Position numbers and translations under genes: made by a program. Under the pieces are notes generated by a model. It was not told where the DNA came from. It made no database searches and saw only the letters and a program-made list of their open reading frames with translations. Shown here in pieces: positions 4,637-31,230 of a DNA stretch of 32,210 nucleotides. The stretch's first letter is position 1, and every line of letters begins with the position of its first letter. Origin of the DNA: a virus; the IMG/VR virus record IMGVR_UViG_3300010885_045821, positions 1 through 32,210 of that record; one strand, 5' to 3'.

Positions 4637-5890
4637 TCACTCAAAATCTGATAAATCATAAACAAAAGATTGTTTAGGAATATATCTTTTGTTATCTTCA
4701 GATAAAAACCAATGCCATCTACTAGGGAATTCAGGTGTAACATTATTTCCAGCACCATCAGTAATGATAAAAACTGCGGCTGGATATTTTTTATTTTCTT
4801 TCTTTTCTTGCTGGATTCTTTCTTCGATAATATCAAAGTAAGTCCCACCACCGCCATATACTTTACCAGATTTCAAATCTGTTTCTTCTACTCTTGTGTC
4901 AAAACAAAACAATCTTATATTAAATTTTTCCTTTGGTAAGCTATTGGCAGCAAGAAAAAATCTTTTTGCTAGATTTATACAGCTTCCAGATGTATCTAAA
5001 AAGAAATAAACATTTACTTTATTCTTCGTCATATGGAAATGTTCAATTTCAGCATTAGAAGGCAATATCAAACCATTATGAAAAGAATTCATTCTTCTTG
5101 ATTTTCTAATCCATTGTTCCTTTTCAGCTTCTTCTAGTTTTAAAGATTTTATTTGCCATTTTTTGATAATTGTTTCCCATTTACGTTTTTTTACTTCTTG
5201 GATTTTTCCAATACTCATCCAGTCACCAGCTTGATTGCCAGCTTTTTTAATGTTGTTTAAAGCATCGTTTAATTGGCTCTTTTCTTTTTCATCTAAAGTA
5301 TCAACTGATTTCTTAATAATTTCTTCCAATTCTTCACTCGACATACCACTATGATCATCTACAAGGTTACCACCACCGTTTAAGCTCATCTGCCAATCAC
5401 CATCGGATTTTTCTTCCATGGTTTTTTCAATTTCGTTGTAGTAAAATTCTGTTGATTCATCGTCAGGATAAGGAAATCCTAAGTATTTTTTGTCTTTAAA
5501 AACAGTGTCAACCCAACAATAATCTGAATTTGGATCAAGTTCTGACCTAATAAAACCGAAATCTCTAACAAGAGCATGATTGACAACTATATCCATAGCA
5601 ATGTTTGCTATTTGATTCTTAAAACTTTCTAAGAATCTTGTTCCATGTTGTAAAACTATATGTAAAGATTCATGACAAATTACAAACATTTTCTTGTAAT
5701 CGTCGCACTCTTGCCAAAACTTTTCATTAAAAAGAAAACTAATGAATTTTCCTTCTTTGTCAAACTGAACCGCTGCTGTAGGAATCCTATCAGTGAAAAA
5801 GGGTTTACCCATTTCGACAATCTTGTAGAAAAGACTATGATGGCAAGCAAGCTTGTTTTTAAGTCTTTCCCAATCTGAATTAATATCCAT
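4637..5890 (-). CDS. DUF2201-type metallopeptidase-like / VWA protein
   Basis: A 417-residue protein with two recognisable parts. The N-terminal half has HESLH at residues 73-77 (an HExxH zinc-peptidase motif) with a further His at 82. The C-terminal part is a VWA-like domain with a MIDAS loop DTSGS (299-303), GGGGT (346-350) and ITDGAG (376-381). This is the architecture of DUF2201 'putative metallopeptidase/VWA-like' proteins, which occur beside MoxR-type AAA ATPases. Here the AAA gene lies immediately upstream with an 11-base overlap, so the two should be made in step and act as a complex, perhaps remodelling or maturing phage or host proteins. The middle section (residues 180-270) is charged and helical. 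Proteolytic activity is inferred from the motif only. Confidence 0.8.
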   Translation of the reverse strand: MDINSDWERLKNKLACHHSLFYKIVEMGKPFFTDRIPTAAVQFDKEGKFISFLFNEKFWQECDDYKKMFVICHESLHIVLQHGTRFLESFKNQIANIAMDIVVNHALVRDFGFIRSELDPNSDYCWVDTVFKDKKYLGFPYPDDESTEFYYNEIEKTMEEKSDGDWQMSLNGGGNLVDDHSGMSSEELEEIIKKSVDTLDEKEKSQLNDALNNIKKAGNQAGDWMSIGKIQEVKKRKWETIIKKWQIKSLKLEEAEKEQWIRKSRRMNSFHNGLILPSNAEIEHFHMTKNKVNVYFFLDTSGSCINLAKRFFLAANSLPKEKFNIRLFCFDTRVEETDLKSGKVYGGGGTYFDIIEERIQQEKKENKKYPAAVFIITDGAGNNVTPEFPSRWHWFLSEDNKRYIPKQSFVYDLSDFE

Positions 5891-7280
5891 TTTGAATTCC
5901 TTTCATCATGTTAATAATTCCTAAATTTTCGCATTTCTTCTTAAAATTTAGGGTTTGACTAATTTTAACAGCAAACATTTTGTCTACTTTTACATAAGAT
6001 CTATTCCATATATCTACCAACAGATCTAAATCATATTGTTTTATAGTTGTCTCCCATTTCTCAGCCACAAAATCTACAATAAATATCATTGTTTTTTCGC
6101 AAACATCAACATTTGGATCATCTGGAAAATTTTGCATAACAATTTTAATTTTATCTTTCTTGCTACATTTGTCAAATTGATCTATGTAATCATTATTTGA
6201 CAACGATTCGACAACGCCATTATTTATATCTTTGGTTTTACTTGATTCTTCTATGCCATTAGAAGCATAATAGGATCTTATTTTCATCAATGCTTTTGGA
6301 TTTGTACTAGCAGTCAATATGTCTTCTACTGCTGATTTGAATTCAGGATGTTTGTTCTTGTTTGCTAAGATATAATCTGAAATAGACATCTTTTCATCAG
6401 CAATCAATAAACATAATTTTTCTTTCTTCAACAAAGGAACGAAAAACTCTTTATAGCCTTCGTTGATGTTGATTATCTTTATGGCAGATACATAGTTGTT
6501 TTCTACATTTAAAAATAATTTTGCTTCTTTTACATTTTTTGCTTCATACAATTTGGACAGTTTCTTATCAATGGGACCATTACTAAGATCTTGTCTTAAT
6601 TTAGACGGATTGCTATCTTTTGGTAGAATGTCTTCTAAAGGTATACCTTTAGCCATATATTCGAGGGCATAATCAAGTCTTCTAGGTGAAACTTGTTTTT
6701 TGATGTTTTCGGGTAAATCGTTCCACCAATTAATACTAGTTATTGCTATGTCGTTACCGTATTTTTTGATAAAATAATCTGCATCACAAGCGTATGGAAC
6801 AAATATTTGATTACCGGGAAATCGATCTTTTTGAGCAGGATCGAGCCTTTCTACATCATAAGTATTTTCTTCATCTTCTGGATTGATCGCAGCCCAAACA
6901 ACTTTCAAGTTAGGAAATTTTCGACCATTGATGGATTTGAATTGGCAAAGTTCTAAAAGAGCATTCCTGATCTTGCTAGGCGAACGATTGAACTCATCGA
7001 TGAAAATAGCTTGAATCTTACCTTCATCTATAAATGCTTTTGGTGGTATTATTTCAATGCATTTCTTGCCGTTGTATTCTATTTCTTTTGGAATACCGAT
7101 AAAGTCAACCCAAGGATCAAGAGTAGATCCTGAGAAATAAAGCCATGATTCATTAAGAACCAAGCCATTGTCTTCAAATACCTGTTTGATAATAGATGTT
7201 TTACCAACGCCATGTGCGCCAGTTATCAAGACATTACTTTCGACATCGAAATGTTTTTTGAGTCTTTCTACAAGATTCAT
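5880..7280 (-). CDS. MoxR-type AAA+ ATPase
   Basis: A 466-residue AAA+ protein. Walker A is GAHGVGKT (residues 21-28), Walker B is AIFIDEFNR (about 90-98), a sensor-like WAAINPEDE follows, and LDPAQKDRF fits the arginine-finger region of MoxR/dynein-related ATPases. The C-terminal 250 residues are variable and helical. MoxR ATPases act as chaperones with VWA proteins, matching the overlapping downstream gene. The start is fixed by a perfect AAGGAGG (7286-7292, minus strand) six bases before the ATG. That Shine-Dalgarno can be fully paired into a leader hairpin whose other arm covers the stop codon of the preceding gene, suggesting translational control or coupling. Confidence 0.85.
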   Translation of the reverse strand: MNLVERLKKHFDVESNVLITGAHGVGKTSIIKQVFEDNGLVLNESWLYFSGSTLDPWVDFIGIPKEIEYNGKKCIEIIPPKAFIDEGKIQAIFIDEFNRSPSKIRNALLELCQFKSINGRKFPNLKVVWAAINPEDEENTYDVERLDPAQKDRFPGNQIFVPYACDADYFIKKYGNDIAITSINWWNDLPENIKKQVSPRRLDYALEYMAKGIPLEDILPKDSNPSKLRQDLSNGPIDKKLSKLYEAKNVKEAKLFLNVENNYVSAIKIININEGYKEFFVPLLKKEKLCLLIADEKMSISDYILANKNKHPEFKSAVEDILTASTNPKALMKIRSYYASNGIEESSKTKDINNGVVESLSNNDYIDQFDKCSKKDKIKIVMQNFPDDPNVDVCEKTMIFIVDFVAEKWETTIKQYDLDLLVDIWNRSYVKVDKMFAVKISQTLNFKKKCENLGIINMMKGIQNGY

Positions 7281-8071: not shown

Positions 8072-8290
8072 TTATTTCCTACCACCTTTGAAAGCTTTAT
8101 CGTATTCCTCTTTTTCTTTTGTCTTCTGCTCCACAAACTTATCAATCAAATATTTTCTTTCAGCAATTGTAAATTGCATAAAGTCTTGTTTTTGAACACG
8201 CAGATGATAGAGAAAGAAAAACATTTCATCCATCAACGCTTGCCATAACTTCAGGCTCGGACTTAATTCGCCTTCTTGCTCTTTGGGAAG
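8072..8290 (-). CDS. Small baseplate/tail-assembly-type protein, probable -1 frameshift product of the gp26-like gene
   Basis: This reading frame overlaps the end of the gp26-like gene and is open from just after a TGA at 8303-8305 to the TAA at 8072-8074. From the slip site it encodes 72 residues, including LWQALMDEMFFFLYHL, TIAERKYLIDKF and a Lys/Glu-rich tail. The pattern of a Tyr-His helix followed by an ERxxLIDxF helix resembles small proteins next to baseplate gp26 in T4-like phages (gp51 region) and small chaperone-like proteins of other contractile systems. There is no convincing ribosome binding site; the first in-frame ATG is at 8233, 19 codons in. The alternative is independent initiation at TTG 8236 or ATG 8233. 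Expression as a gp26-like fusion through the T TTT TTC heptamer is my preferred reading. Confidence 0.6.
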   Translation of the reverse strand, partial: LPKEQEGELSPSLKLWQALMDEMFFFLYHLRVQKQDFMQFTIAERKYLIDKFVEQKTKEKEEYDKAFKGGRK

Positions 8291-9363
8291 AAAAAACCTG
8301 AATCAAGTGGCAATTCTATTTCAAAGTCCTCGTTTGAATAAGGAGATAGCACCGTAATATTTGTTTCCATTCCAAATGGAGGATCATTGATAACATTTCT
8401 CATGTAATTTACATCTTGAATAGACAAATTTCTGATTAATACTTTCAATTCTTCTTTATCTGTGATTGTTTCAACACTATTTAGCAAAAGCGCAAGTCTA
8501 AATGTCATTGTGTCATCTAGCGCCGTTTCACTAAATGCTTTTATTTTTGATTCTCTGTATTGTTGCAAATCAGTTTCATCTTTGCCTTTTCCAAACCTAT
8601 AACTAAATTTATATTTACTTTTTGGCAAAACACCATTCAAATTGTTTGGTCCAAAATTATCAGGACATCTAATGATTTCCAAAGTGTCTAAATCAACAGT
8701 TGTTGCAAATTGCCTTTCTGTTTCTGGACATTTAATTTGAATGTCATAATCAGTTCCATAACTAATACCACGAAGATAAATCAAAAGAAATGTTCTATCC
8801 TGTGAAAGAAGATTTTCTGGTTTAATATCTTCTCTGATACACTTGCTAAAAATCATATTAATAGCAGTGTTCTTTTTCACAAATCTAGGTGTCGCAAGAA
8901 TTTGCTCTTCTTCACCAGTCATCGGTCTAATGTGAATTATTCCATTCGTTGGTCCATCTGTCCCATCATAAAACTTTCCCCTACTAGGAAGCATTACTTC
9001 TTCGTAGTTAATGCTATTTTGCTTTAACGCATTCAAGATAGCATTAAGCTCAGGGTTTGCATTCATCATCACCATTGCAGTCGAAACGTCCATTTGCGAC
9101 TTAGGCATTGGCGCAAAACCAGAAGTATCACCACCAAGTTGAGATCTGAATTGAGGAGGAATATTACCTGTGACTGCTCCAGCGGGAAAATTATTAAACT
9201 CTGGTGGTAGTCCTTGAGGTTGCCCTTGTGGCGGCATTTGCTGTCTTAAAGGATGATTTTCCGGTAAATCCATCTGTTGTTCTTTTGGCAAATTAACAGG
9301 ATTGTTGCCGCCAAATCCGTTAGGTGTGTTTGGTCTTTGTGGTCTATAAATTTCATCAGCCAT
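8263..9363 (-). CDS. gp26-like baseplate protein (T4_baseplate family)
   Basis: A 366-residue protein. The first 120 residues are low-complexity (Pro/Gln/Asn/Gly-rich, with NHPLRQQMPPQGQPQG). The remainder matches the T4-type baseplate family: the MLPSRGKFYDG motif, GIIHIRPMTGEEEQILATP, a helical core (INMIFSKCIREDI) and a strand-rich section with YDIQIKCPETERQF. T4 gp26 itself is near 208 residues, so this is the family core plus a long disordered extension. I place the start at ATG 9363, behind AAGGGG, rather than six codons upstream where no binding site exists. A -1 slippery site near the 3' end probably yields a longer fusion with the next small frame. A late-type TAATAAATA lies upstream. 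Confidence 0.7.
   Translation of the reverse strand: MADEIYRPQRPNTPNGFGGNNPVNLPKEQQMDLPENHPLRQQMPPQGQPQGLPPEFNNFPAGAVTGNIPPQFRSQLGGDTSGFAPMPKSQMDVSTAMVMMNANPELNAILNALKQNSINYEEVMLPSRGKFYDGTDGPTNGIIHIRPMTGEEEQILATPRFVKKNTAINMIFSKCIREDIKPENLLSQDRTFLLIYLRGISYGTDYDIQIKCPETERQFATTVDLDTLEIIRCPDNFGPNNLNGVLPKSKYKFSYRFGKGKDETDLQQYRESKIKAFSETALDDTMTFRLALLLNSVETITDKEELKVLIRNLSIQDVNYMRNVINDPPFGMETNITVLSPYSNEDFEIELPLDSGFFFPKSKKAN
8290..8296 (-). promoter_or_regulatory. Candidate -1 frameshift slippery heptamer T TTT TTC
   Basis: In the frame of the gp26-like gene the codons read GGT TTT TTC TTC, so the heptamer T TTT TTC is in the exact X XXY YYZ register. It lies eight codons before the zero-frame stop (8263-8265) and two codons after the last stop in the -1 frame. 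Phage P2 tail gene E uses a similar run of Ts. No strong downstream pseudoknot was seen by eye. Confidence 0.55.
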
Positions 9364-9441
9364 TATTTTCCCCTTATTCATTAATCTTATTTTTAATTTA
9401 GTGATATTTATTAAAAACTATATTGTAATAGGAGATTTTTT
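9364..9441. promoter_or_regulatory. Divergent promoter region
   Basis: This 78-base AT-rich gap separates two outward-facing units. On the plus strand, AACTATATTGTAAT (9416-9429) is followed at once by AGGAG and ATG 9442; the same core (ACTATATTG) recurs at 11489-11497. On the minus strand, TAATAAATA resembles the T4 late box TATAAATA. Promoter function is inferred. Confidence 0.45.
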
Positions 9442-12143: not shown

Positions 12144-12413
12144 ATGAAGAATAGATTTCTCGAAGGCATTGAAAGTAATGAACTTTTAAATATTCTCGAA
12201 AACAGTTACCTCAAAGAAAAAATCAATCTCTTACTTTCAAACGAAAACCTTGTTTATACAAAAAAAGGCAGATTGAATAAGTCTGGTGCTTGTCGCATTC
12301 TAGATATGAAAAACAAAGAACTAGAAACATTCCTTGAAGAATGCAGAAAAGTTCTTGAAGTTGATCAATTTTTAGACAAAGATGAATATCAGGCTTTAAA
12401 GGAAAGTGATTAA
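12144..12413 (+). CDS. Small helical protein next to the sigma factor
   Basis: An 89-residue, almost entirely helical protein with a possible helix-turn-helix-like middle (KKGRLNKSGACRILDM, then KELETFLEECRKVL) and an acidic C-terminal end (EVDQFLDKDEYQALKESD). GAGGAG lies eight bases before the ATG. Position behind a gp55-like gene invites comparison with the T4 late co-activator gp33, but I see no sequence match and do not assign it. It converges on the second tail-tube gene with a four-base stop overlap (TTAA). Confidence 0.6.
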   Translation: MKNRFLEGIESNELLNILENSYLKEKINLLLSNENLVYTKKGRLNKSGACRILDMKNKELETFLEECRKVLEVDQFLDKDEYQALKESD

Positions 12414-12991
12414 GGAATCATATATTGGGATGCAATAGAAATTATATTTCTGCTACATGCTTCCCAATAAGCTCTATCATATCTTAAAGTCATGTTAATC
12501 CTCATAGCATCGCTTGAGCCCATGCTAACTTCACCCCAGTCAACAGCAACAGGATAAGCATTAACGTAATTCCAAGCTTCTATTGCATATCCACAACCAT
12601 CTAGCATAAATATTTGAACATTTCTTTTGAAATTACCGCTAGCACCACCCAAATAACCAATACCAACCTGATTACTATTTCCCATTTTTCTTAAATAATA
12701 ATTAGATGTAATCCATCCCCAAGCAGGATTTGATTGCGCAACATCATATAAGCTAACTTGTAAATTGTCCCACTCAGGTCTACCAGCAAATCTTATAGTC
12801 TCTATAACATGGTTTACTTCAATTTCTTTATAAGAAAGCTTTGGTCTAGCAGATTTTTCTTCTAGTAATACTTTGTTATAAATTCTAACAGAACTATTAC
12901 CAACATGCGTAACGTCTGGTATGTGCATGATAAACCGGTTTTGCCTCTTGAATACTACAGAAGAGGCAAAACCAATACCCATATTAGGCAT
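12410..12991 (-). CDS. Second tail-tube (gp19-like) paralogue
   Basis: A 193-residue protein paralogous to the tube protein encoded immediately upstream. Both have NMGIG near the N-terminus followed by a basic VFKRxxR segment, and share a C-terminal block: LDGCGY, an aromatic-rich WxYVN/WTLVN, a WG/FG turn, and TLRY near the end. gp19 proteins form the inner tube of contractile tails. The start is ATG 12991, behind TAAGGA; a longer frame to 13072 runs into the upstream gene and has no binding site. It may build a specialised ring, such as a tube initiator or terminus like T4 gp54/gp48, or be a second tube subunit. A 12-bp perfect hairpin lies in its first 20 codons. Confidence 0.7.
   Translation of the reverse strand: MPNMGIGFASSVVFKRQNRFIMHIPDVTHVGNSSVRIYNKVLLEEKSARPKLSYKEIEVNHVIETIRFAGRPEWDNLQVSLYDVAQSNPAWGWITSNYYLRKMGNSNQVGIGYLGGASGNFKRNVQIFMLDGCGYAIEAWNYVNAYPVAVDWGEVSMGSSDAMRINMTLRYDRAYWEACSRNIISIASQYMIP
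12938..12972 (-). repeat. Perfect 12-bp inverted repeat inside the tube paralogue
   Basis: GTTTTGCCTCTT (12938-12949) is the exact reverse complement of 12961-12972, with an 11-base loop. It lies seven codons after the start of the tube paralogue, so on the mRNA it forms a stable hairpin just inside the gene. It could lower expression of the second tube relative to the first or mark an RNA processing site. Confidence 0.6.
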
Positions 12992-13002
12992 AATTATTAT
13001 CC

Positions 13003-13662
13003 TTAGAAGTTTGCTCCTACAGCAGAGCCGCAAACAGGTATGCTGCAAATTTCTCCAGCAAGTGGTGCGCAATTGCTTTCGTATTTAGCATAAGAATATC
13101 TAAGAGTTACTGCAATATCACATTCGCCAGACTCAGAGTAGCTCAAGTCCCCGAAGTTTATACTTTGGGGCCAGCAGTTAACTAAAGTCCACGTTTCAAG
13201 AACATAACCGCAACCGTCGAGAAGAAGTAGTTTTCCAGTTCCTGCGTAGCCATTACCAGCACCAGTTGGATCTACTGCGTAACTTCTTTGAGTTGCTGCA
13301 ATTTCAGTTGAATTAGCTACACCGCTAGCTGGTGAAGCGAAGTTATAAACTCTGTTAACCCATCTTAGAAGATTAGTGACAGTTAAATCTCCGGGAACTG
13401 CCACATCGTAATATGTAAATTCTATGCTTTGGAAAGTGGCTTTACCGGGCAACCAAGTCTTTCCATTCAAGAAATTGATTTCTGTGCCATCATCAATTTC
13501 AAGATTTGGTCTGTTACCTGCTTTTACATACTTACCAGAAACACCAAAGCTGTTTGAACCACCGCCGCCTACGTTTTCTACAGAAAACAACCAGCGATAT
13601 TTACGCTTAAAGGCTACATTGCCCAGTGGTCCAATCCCCATATTATTAACTGTACTAGCCAT
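13003..13662 (-). CDS. Tail tube protein (gp19-like)
   Basis: A 219-residue protein with the features of T4-type tail tubes: an N-terminal GPLGNVAFKRKYRWLFSV segment, a beta-rich body containing FQSIEFTYYDVA, and a conserved end (LLLDGCGYVLETW...WPQSINFGDLSYSES...TLRY). It polymerises as hexamer rings inside the sheath to form the DNA channel. ATG 13662 is chosen over the TTG one codon earlier because GGGAGG sits five bases upstream. It lies 30 bases downstream of the sheath gene, the T4 order 18-19, and 11 bases upstream of its paralogue. It should be made in very large amounts, and the fairly rich codon use agrees. Confidence 0.82.
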   Translation of the reverse strand: MASTVNNMGIGPLGNVAFKRKYRWLFSVENVGGGGSNSFGVSGKYVKAGNRPNLEIDDGTEINFLNGKTWLPGKATFQSIEFTYYDVAVPGDLTVTNLLRWVNRVYNFASPASGVANSTEIAATQRSYAVDPTGAGNGYAGTGKLLLLDGCGYVLETWTLVNCWPQSINFGDLSYSESGECDIAVTLRYSYAKYESNCAPLAGEICSIPVCGSAVGANF

Positions 13663-13692
13663 CAATCCTCCCTTGTATTAATATTTTTATTA

Positions 13693-30306: not shown

Positions 30307-30346
30307 TTAAGCCTCTGGTGTAGTTGTGCCAGAGGCTTAATTTTTT
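30307..30346. terminator. Strong intrinsic terminator, likely bidirectional
   Basis: TTAAGCCTCTGG (30307-30318) pairs perfectly with CCAGAGGCTTAA (30329-30340), loop 10 bases, followed by TTTTTT (30341-30346). It ends the polyampholyte gene; its right arm overlaps the stop codon (30337-30339) of the converging GT2 gene. Confidence 0.88.
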
Positions 30347-31230
30347 AATAAATCTTTTAATTTATTGTTCTTTATCCATTTTGTAAAAAAAACATTTTTA
30401 TTTCTTTGCATAAAAGGATGATTTAAAGATTTTGAATGATGCTTTTTATGATAGATTAAAGATGCTGGTTCGAATATAACTTTATAGCCTCGTTCTTTCA
30501 AAGTCATACACATATCTGCGTCTTCACAATATCCTACTAAATATTGTTCATCATACATTCCTATTTCAAAAAATAAATTTTTTCTAATAGCAACACAACA
30601 TCCTGTAACCATTTGTCTTTCACTTGTTGTCAACATCCCTGATGGAGCGTTATGAATATAAAAAGGATTGTTTAATATTTTGCCTTTGTAAATCCTGCCT
30701 CCAATGTGCAAAAATGATTTATGTGAGTTACTCCATTCTGATCCAGCACTATCAACAGCACCATCGAATTTGCCACCCCAACGTAATTGAAGATTTCCAA
30801 CTATCCCAACTTTTTCGTCTTGAAGGTGTTGAATTAAGGGCTCTATCCAATTATTCGTGACCTTGGTGTCTGCATTCAGAAAAATTAAATAATCGCCTGT
30901 AGCGTGTTTAGCGCCCCAATTACAATTGCCTCCATAACCACGATTTGTTTCACTTTCAATAATCTTGATGCTGTATTTTGCTGTTAATTCTTTTTCATAC
31001 TTCATGCAAATTTCAAATATTTTATTTTTTGTTTTATTAGGACATGCATCATCGGCAAATACAATTTCTATTTCAATTGTATTTGCAGCATTAACAAAAG
31101 ATTCAACTAACGATTCAATTACATCTTGGCTTTTGTAAACAGGAACTATTACAGACACTTGTTTTGTTTTTTGATTGTAAAATTGATTCGGCAAGTTCGT
31201 AAAATGCGAACTTGCTTTTAGTTTCATCAT
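30337..31230 (-). CDS. Glycosyltransferase family 2
   Basis: A 297-residue enzyme with a complete GT2 core: VSVIVPVYKSQDVIESLVES (residues 25-44), VFADDACP (58-64), NRGYGGNCNWGAKHATGDYL, NAD at 119-121 as the DxD metal motif, a TGCCVAIRK acceptor loop, and GYCEDADMCMTLKERGYKV with the ED pair of the base region, then PASLIYHKKHHS. It transfers sugar from a nucleotide donor; the HxxGG-type loop suggests rhamnosyl- or similar transferases, but the donor is unknown. It overlaps the upstream amidoligase gene by four bases (ATGA) and has no own Shine-Dalgarno, so the two are coupled. Together they look like a peptide/glycan modification unit. Confidence 0.88.
   Translation of the reverse strand: MMKLKASSHFTNLPNQFYNQKTKQVSVIVPVYKSQDVIESLVESFVNAANTIEIEIVFADDACPNKTKNKIFEICMKYEKELTAKYSIKIIESETNRGYGGNCNWGAKHATGDYLIFLNADTKVTNNWIEPLIQHLQDEKVGIVGNLQLRWGGKFDGAVDSAGSEWSNSHKSFLHIGGRIYKGKILNNPFYIHNAPSGMLTTSERQMVTGCCVAIRKNLFFEIGMYDEQYLVGYCEDADMCMTLKERGYKVIFEPASLIYHKKHHSKSLNHPFMQRNKNVFFTKWIKNNKLKDLLKN

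Follow-up and report, generated by a model that had tools for sequence, protein, structure and literature searches.

Does the gp26-like gene of an uncultivated virus yield only the protein encoded by its own open reading frame (ORF), or do some ribosomes shift frame near its end and add a second domain? The question arises in IMG/VR record IMGVR_UViG_3300010885_045821, of which we analyzed positions 1 to 32,210 (here, the window), where a minus-strand gene related to T4 gene 26 overlaps a small downstream frame. A first-pass annotation, made from the letters of the window alone, proposed that a programmed -1 frameshift joins the two. Frameshifting produces the paired tail assembly chaperones (TACs) of lambda (G/GT) and P2 (E/E') (Levin 1993; Christie 2002; Xu 2004; reviewed in PMC5009743), and the G-T frameshift is conserved in long-tailed phages, T4 excepted (2016 review, PMC5009743). 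Our analysis strongly supports the proposal, with heptamer, offset, and open frame kept in nearly every relative. Judging from this conservation, we are highly confident that a -1 frameshift at T TTT TTC yields a short (TAC-N) and an extended (TAC-NC) product in the tail chaperone locus of a T4-superfamily contractile-tailed virus, which very probably makes two proteins from one message at this tail gene.

By profile search, the window gene is a member of the T4 gp26 family, matching PF12322 above the curated cut-off (57.5 bits versus 24.5; E = 2.1e-15) and phrog_150 at E = 2.7e-18. Its product is 372 aa long from the ATG at 9381, or 366 aa from a better-placed ATG at 9363 behind AAGGGGA. The gene closes with the minus-strand codons GAT TCA GGT TTT TTC TTC CCA AAG AGC AAG AAG GCG AAT TAA, in which T TTT TTC stands in the X XXY YYZ register (8296-8290), as first described. 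The P2 slip site is a T-run heptamer as well. Read at -1, the same stretch runs TGA (8305-8303) TTC AGG TTT TTT and then CTT CCC AAA, remaining open for 72 codons (8290-8075) until a TAA at 8074-8072, ~190 nt beyond the gp26 stop; the upstream TGA and the long open run are thus where the first-pass annotation had placed them. The predicted junction peptide is ...LDSGFF-LPKEQ, in agreement with the first-pass annotation. T TTT TTY occurs in register 8 times in the 9,991 codons of the window's ORFs of at least 120 aa, so in this AT-rich contig the heptamer is not rare by itself, and mononucleotide shuffles give P ~0.0016 for the 72-codon open stretch. Such single-contig chance figures cannot decide the frameshift question, and we therefore used conservation as the test.

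A gp26 protein search of viral contigs returned 79 loci, and a dereplicated set of 46 loci at <85% identity was collected with the motif TTTTTCTT[CT]CC. Reading the readable gp26 ends without the motif gave NNT TTT TTC TTC CCN (NNC TTT TTC in one pair), with the -1 frame open far beyond the stop. This motif-free survey of the 79 loci found no relative that has a correctly read gp26 end and lacks the site; L024 is truncated, and L001 and L002 both carry the site once a spurious ATG start is set aside. Across the 46 dereplicated loci, the site codons are TTT (46/46), TTC (46/46), and TTC (45/46), the preceding wobble base is T in 45/46, and the complete heptamer is retained in 45/46. Phe codons overall are 62% TTT in the relatives' gp26 genes, and other conserved Phe columns vary. 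On the gp26 tree, third-base changes number 1, 0, 0, and 1 at the four site codons, whereas other conserved degenerate codons have a median of 17 changes and never fewer than 7. The wobble bases of the first two site codons are not read by a -1 frame that ribosomes enter only by slipping there; their constancy is explained by slippage and not by dual coding.

The reverse search, by extension profile alone, yielded 80 loci (53 distinct). In every one of the 53, an ORF as long as gp26 lies upstream with the extension at -1 to it, and the small frame is detached from a gp26-like frame in none of them; T TTT TTC is in register in 51 and C TTT TTC in 2. The alignment of homologues that the first-pass annotation had suggested as a check thus bears out both heptamer and offset, and we regard conservation across the relatives, which is far beyond chance, as decisive. 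The loci L022, L023, L290, and L303 read GCC TTT TTC (C TTT TTC), a change that breaks P-site re-pairing; they retain the -1 extension.

The extension is itself conserved in 46/46 relatives, with the consensus LPxxQExxExPSLxLWxxLMEEIFFFxYH...ERKYxIxRFIEQKxKE. Past the zero-frame stop, substitutions in the -1 frame stand at 0.37/0.28/0.60 for codon positions 1/2/3. By this pattern, the extension evolves as a protein; both the zero frame and the -1 frame are under protein-level constraint. It could nevertheless be a separate gene, initiated internally or by termination-reinitiation past the gp26 stop, with the heptamer incidental. Some relatives fit this description: cyanophage-type loci have an ATG just past the gp26 stop, and databases annotate in them an independent "gp51 / baseplate hub assembly catalyst" gene, while in LIMEstone1 (Ackermannviridae) and Vibrio phage K393 the overlapping -1 frame comes without a heptamer. 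In the window clade, however, the stretch from the heptamer to the conserved extension start is free of ATG, GTG, and TTG in all 46 relatives, and among all possible starts in the 46 loci only one has a Shine-Dalgarno (SD)-like stretch, a weak one. The first starts in the window's own -1 frame (TTG/ATG) come 29-32 nt past the gp26 stop, within the first conserved helix and without an SD sequence, which agrees with the earlier remark that the small frame has no convincing ribosome binding site. In the AlphaFold model of the extension, a helical hairpin with a predicted local distance difference test (pLDDT) score of 87, the first helix begins at residue 11, ahead of the earliest possible start at residues 19-20. 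Separate initiation would also leave the frozen wobble bases of GGT/AAT TTT TTC unexplained. The window clade thus shows neither a cleanly separate small gene with its own ribosome binding site nor an unconserved heptamer, and we consider a separate gene very unlikely.

Transcriptional slippage, in which RNA polymerase would slip on the T run so that a mixed mRNA pool encodes both forms, appears slightly less probable still. It would produce the same fusion, and the T6 run is conserved. The run nevertheless stays at six T and then C, which is short for productive transcriptional slippage, where runs usually reach 8-9 or more, and it is the heptamer in codon register X XXY YYZ that is conserved rather than run length. 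A sequencing or assembly artifact, or one gene decayed and split by an indel, is a negligible prospect: a -1 offset at the T run of a single contig has the look of a homopolymer error, but dozens of independent contigs, drawn from different metagenomes, show the identical offset and site and both frames are constrained at the protein level, so the relatives already refute error or decay.

What the two products of the -1 frameshift might do is suggested by their folds and relatives. AlphaFold models the gp26-like product at pLDDT 90, and among the PDB chains re-aligned with VIA, only YqbN (6.2), Rbstp2171 (5.4), and HK97 gp13 (5.3) reach a Z of at least 5 against it; the next stands at 3.0. All three are named phage tail assembly chaperones (PMC9603447). 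A sequence search of gp26 against solved structures found no relative, and a Foldseek search of the model against the PDB found nothing significant. We take the modeled TAC fold of the gp26-like product as supportive rather than conclusive. In the relatives SP-15, LIS04, immuto, and HTVC008M, the gp26-like gene lies shortly upstream of the tape measure gene, which is the usual, though not strictly defining, place of a TAC pair.

The viral proteins that best match the extension in fold are annotated as tail assembly chaperones, though with a non-significant E, and comparison of its model with the PDB by VIA-align gave nothing informative. A direct hmmscan of the extension against PHROGs and Pfam returned no convincing match; a Tma16 match (E = 0.008) fell below the family cut-off and was judged a chance hit. 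The narrow profile of the window extension does not match the cyanophage domain significantly. A pooled 51-sequence profile of window-type and +1-frame extensions aligns collinearly with the gp51 / hub-assembly-catalyst domain (E = 7e-6, probability 84%), and a linking group connects the extension to the gp51-type domain at E = 2e-8 and 6e-6. On these profile matches, the extension is probably homologous to the gp51-type "hub assembly catalyst" (phrog_634). The gp26-51-like fusion of the first-pass annotation is therefore upheld indirectly, through the pooled profile, and not by a direct hmmscan match of the window extension. T4 gp26 shares its family (PF12322, phrog_150) with the window gene, and T4 gp51 matches the gp26 family over its whole length and the "hub assembly catalyst" family at its C terminus. 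Because T4 gp51 is thus a gp26-like body with a C-terminal domain, the window's frameshift product would have the architecture of T4 gp51. The chaperone-like fold of gp26 and the gp51-type extension together point to a TAC-N/TAC-NC pair as in lambda G/GT.

In the mechanism that we propose, most ribosomes would translate the gp26-like TAC-N and terminate at its own stop (8265-8263), while a minority, with Phe tRNAs on TTT TTC, would slip one base back onto TTT TTT within the heptamer. The slipped ribosomes would go on with CTT CCC and complete a TAC-NC whose predicted helical C-terminal domain is 72 residues long. Analogy with lambda gpG/gpGT suggests that TAC-N would coat the tape measure or hub, with the rare extended product joining the TAC-N complex to tail-tube or hub subunits. 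Our data show the site and its register, the frame offset, conserved coding in both frames, the lack of starts, and a TAC-like predicted fold; that ribosomes slip, how often they do so, and that the products act as chaperones is what we infer. Several points weigh against this account. The lambda-like role of the gp26-like and extended pair rests on analogy; the VIA Z scores of 5-6 are middling and should be weighed as support, not proof; and a small sub-group of relatives carries C TTT TTC. We recognized no tape measure adjoining the gp26-like gene in the window, where the genes next to the locus encode a 245-aa protein without assignment, an AAA ATPase, and a VWA/metallopeptidase-like protein. 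A search for stimulators revealed no conserved RNA structure downstream of the heptamer (mean z -0.34 over 46 sites), and inspection by eye showed no SD-like stimulator upstream; frameshift efficiency may thus be low or set by the heptamer alone.

Table 1. Elements of the gp26-like locus and its predicted -1 frameshift in the window
Feature	Position	Strand	Basis
gp26-like gene, zero-frame product (TAC-N-like)	8263..9381	minus	PF12322 and phrog_150 matches; predicted fold
Slippery heptamer T TTT TTC (GGT TTT TTC), X XXY YYZ register	8290..8296	minus	sequence and conservation
TGA closing the -1 frame, two codons upstream of the slip site	8303..8305	minus	sequence
TAA, zero-frame stop of the gp26-like gene, ~25 nt past the heptamer	8263..8265	minus	sequence
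-1 extension, 72 aa and TAA; putative C-terminal domain of the frameshift product (TAC-NC / gp51-type)	8072..8290	minus	conservation, codon-position pattern, predicted fold, profile match

The -1 arrangement extends beyond the window clade. T TTT TTC/TTT/TTG followed by a -1 extension is present in the annotated cyanophages Sf-FS3, P-HM1, and S-SKS1, also in HTVC008M, Cr30, Moby, PX29, Vibrio D483, PA5oct, and 121Q, and further in RL2RES, Atu_ph07, Vibrio 2.275, RAS14, and XacN1. Queries of cyanophage and 121Q type retrieved 21 dereplicated viral contigs, 20 of which agree with the -1 pattern. In several of the annotated phages an ATG overlaps the gp26 stop or immediately follows it, and such phages may also make a separate small protein. 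The cyanophage-type loci L091, L094, and L189-L268 combine the heptamer with an ATG soon past the gp26 stop, and their extension may be both a fusion and a free "gp51."

A large sister group that includes Microcystis phage Mel-JY01, Flavobacterium immuto, and Rhodothermus RM378 resembles the window in pairing a homologous gp26-type first gene with a homologous extension (hhalign E = 2e-8 between extension profiles), but its extension lies in the +1 frame and not at -1. All 57 dereplicated loci of this group are open through (C/T)TT T(GG/AC), with TTT TTT TGG CCT in 50, and none has a start within the first eight extension codons. CTT TGG of immuto is compatible with a +1 slip (CTT to TTT) and not with a -2 slip. 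These patterns suggest +1 rather than -1 recoding of the homologous gene pair in the sister group. Its loci (L109-L188, L087, L102, and L105) were observed at the ends of gp26-like genes. SP-15, LIS04, and GXN1 (L082, L083, and L084) likewise hold the extension at a +1 offset and share NCC CGA TTY after the Phe codons, with an ambiguous slip site.

We lean toward the view that the gp26/gp51-type family kept its two-form output while the route of production changed several times. The window clade, cyanophages, several jumbo phages, and PX29 would use a -1 slip at T TTT TTY; the Mel-JY01, Flavobacterium, and Rhodothermus groups would use a +1 slip at (C/T)TT T(GG/AC), with a possible further +1 type in SP-15-like phages. 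Two forms would arise without a slip through an overlapping separate gene in Ackermannviridae and through gene duplication in T4. If this is true, recoding direction is evolutionarily replaceable around a fixed protein output. The +1 sister group is a natural test of how recoding direction can switch.

The locus differs from lambda G/GT and P2 E/E' in that its first gene belongs to the T4 gp26 family and to no recognized lambda G or P2 E sequence family. Pseudomonas phage Adele, Vandenendeviridae, and Andersonviridae have a TAC locus like that of the window in its predicted -1 frameshift at a conserved poly-T motif ending TAC-N, with a continuous -1 frame ahead of the tape measure gene; they represent a different phage lineage, and their motif is GTTTTT (PMC12846349). 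The first-pass annotation had not seen a gp26-51-like fusion described for T4-type baseplate genes, a remark on novelty that does not stand. PMC12846349 (2025) attributes the poly-T slippery sites of T4-like TAC-N genes to Vladimirov, Gautam and Davidson 2022 (Virology 566:9-15); that work, as cited by PRFect, describes T4-like phages as carrying one short and one long gene. Given this credit, as far as these citing texts convey it, and the site's presence in many annotated T4-superfamily phages, the window frameshift is not the first for T4-type genes. Of our findings, the switch of recoding direction has the best chance of being new. T4 differs from the window locus in that its long form is a separate, divergently placed gene 51 and its gp26, with gene 25 next in order, has no T-run site. 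For years T4 has been cited as the exception to the tail-chaperone frameshift conserved in long-tailed phages; the frameshift appears widespread in the gp26 family to which T4 belongs, beyond the T4 group itself, which suggests that the separate T4 genes for gp26 and gp51 are a substitute for the frameshift. Annotations of a stand-alone "baseplate hub assembly catalyst" gene may often refer to the end of a frameshift product.

Other features of the window accompany the gp26-like locus. Downstream of it, at 4637-7280 on the minus strand, an AAA ATPase gene (phrog_1297) and a gene for a DUF2201/VWA-like metallopeptidase-type protein overlap by 11 nt, forming a MoxR/VWA-like pair near the tail chaperone gene. 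At 12410-13665, also on the minus strand, two tandem tail-tube paralogues (phrog_4542) adjoin a 777-aa sheath; the downstream paralogue is listed with a TTG start but probably begins at an ATG right after the stop of the first gene. A T TTT TTT near another gene end, in a glycosyltransferase ORF (30337-31230), was set aside as a slip-site candidate since its -1 frame is closed between site and stop and gives no extension. A plus-strand gene at 11502-11990 matches phrog_234 (E = 4e-7), and its late sigma factor-like product would fit late transcription of the T4 type. The relatives L032, L081, and L078 sit on phage contigs of 533 kb, 595 kb, and 254 kb, very large sizes that raise the possibility that the window is part of a jumbo phage genome.
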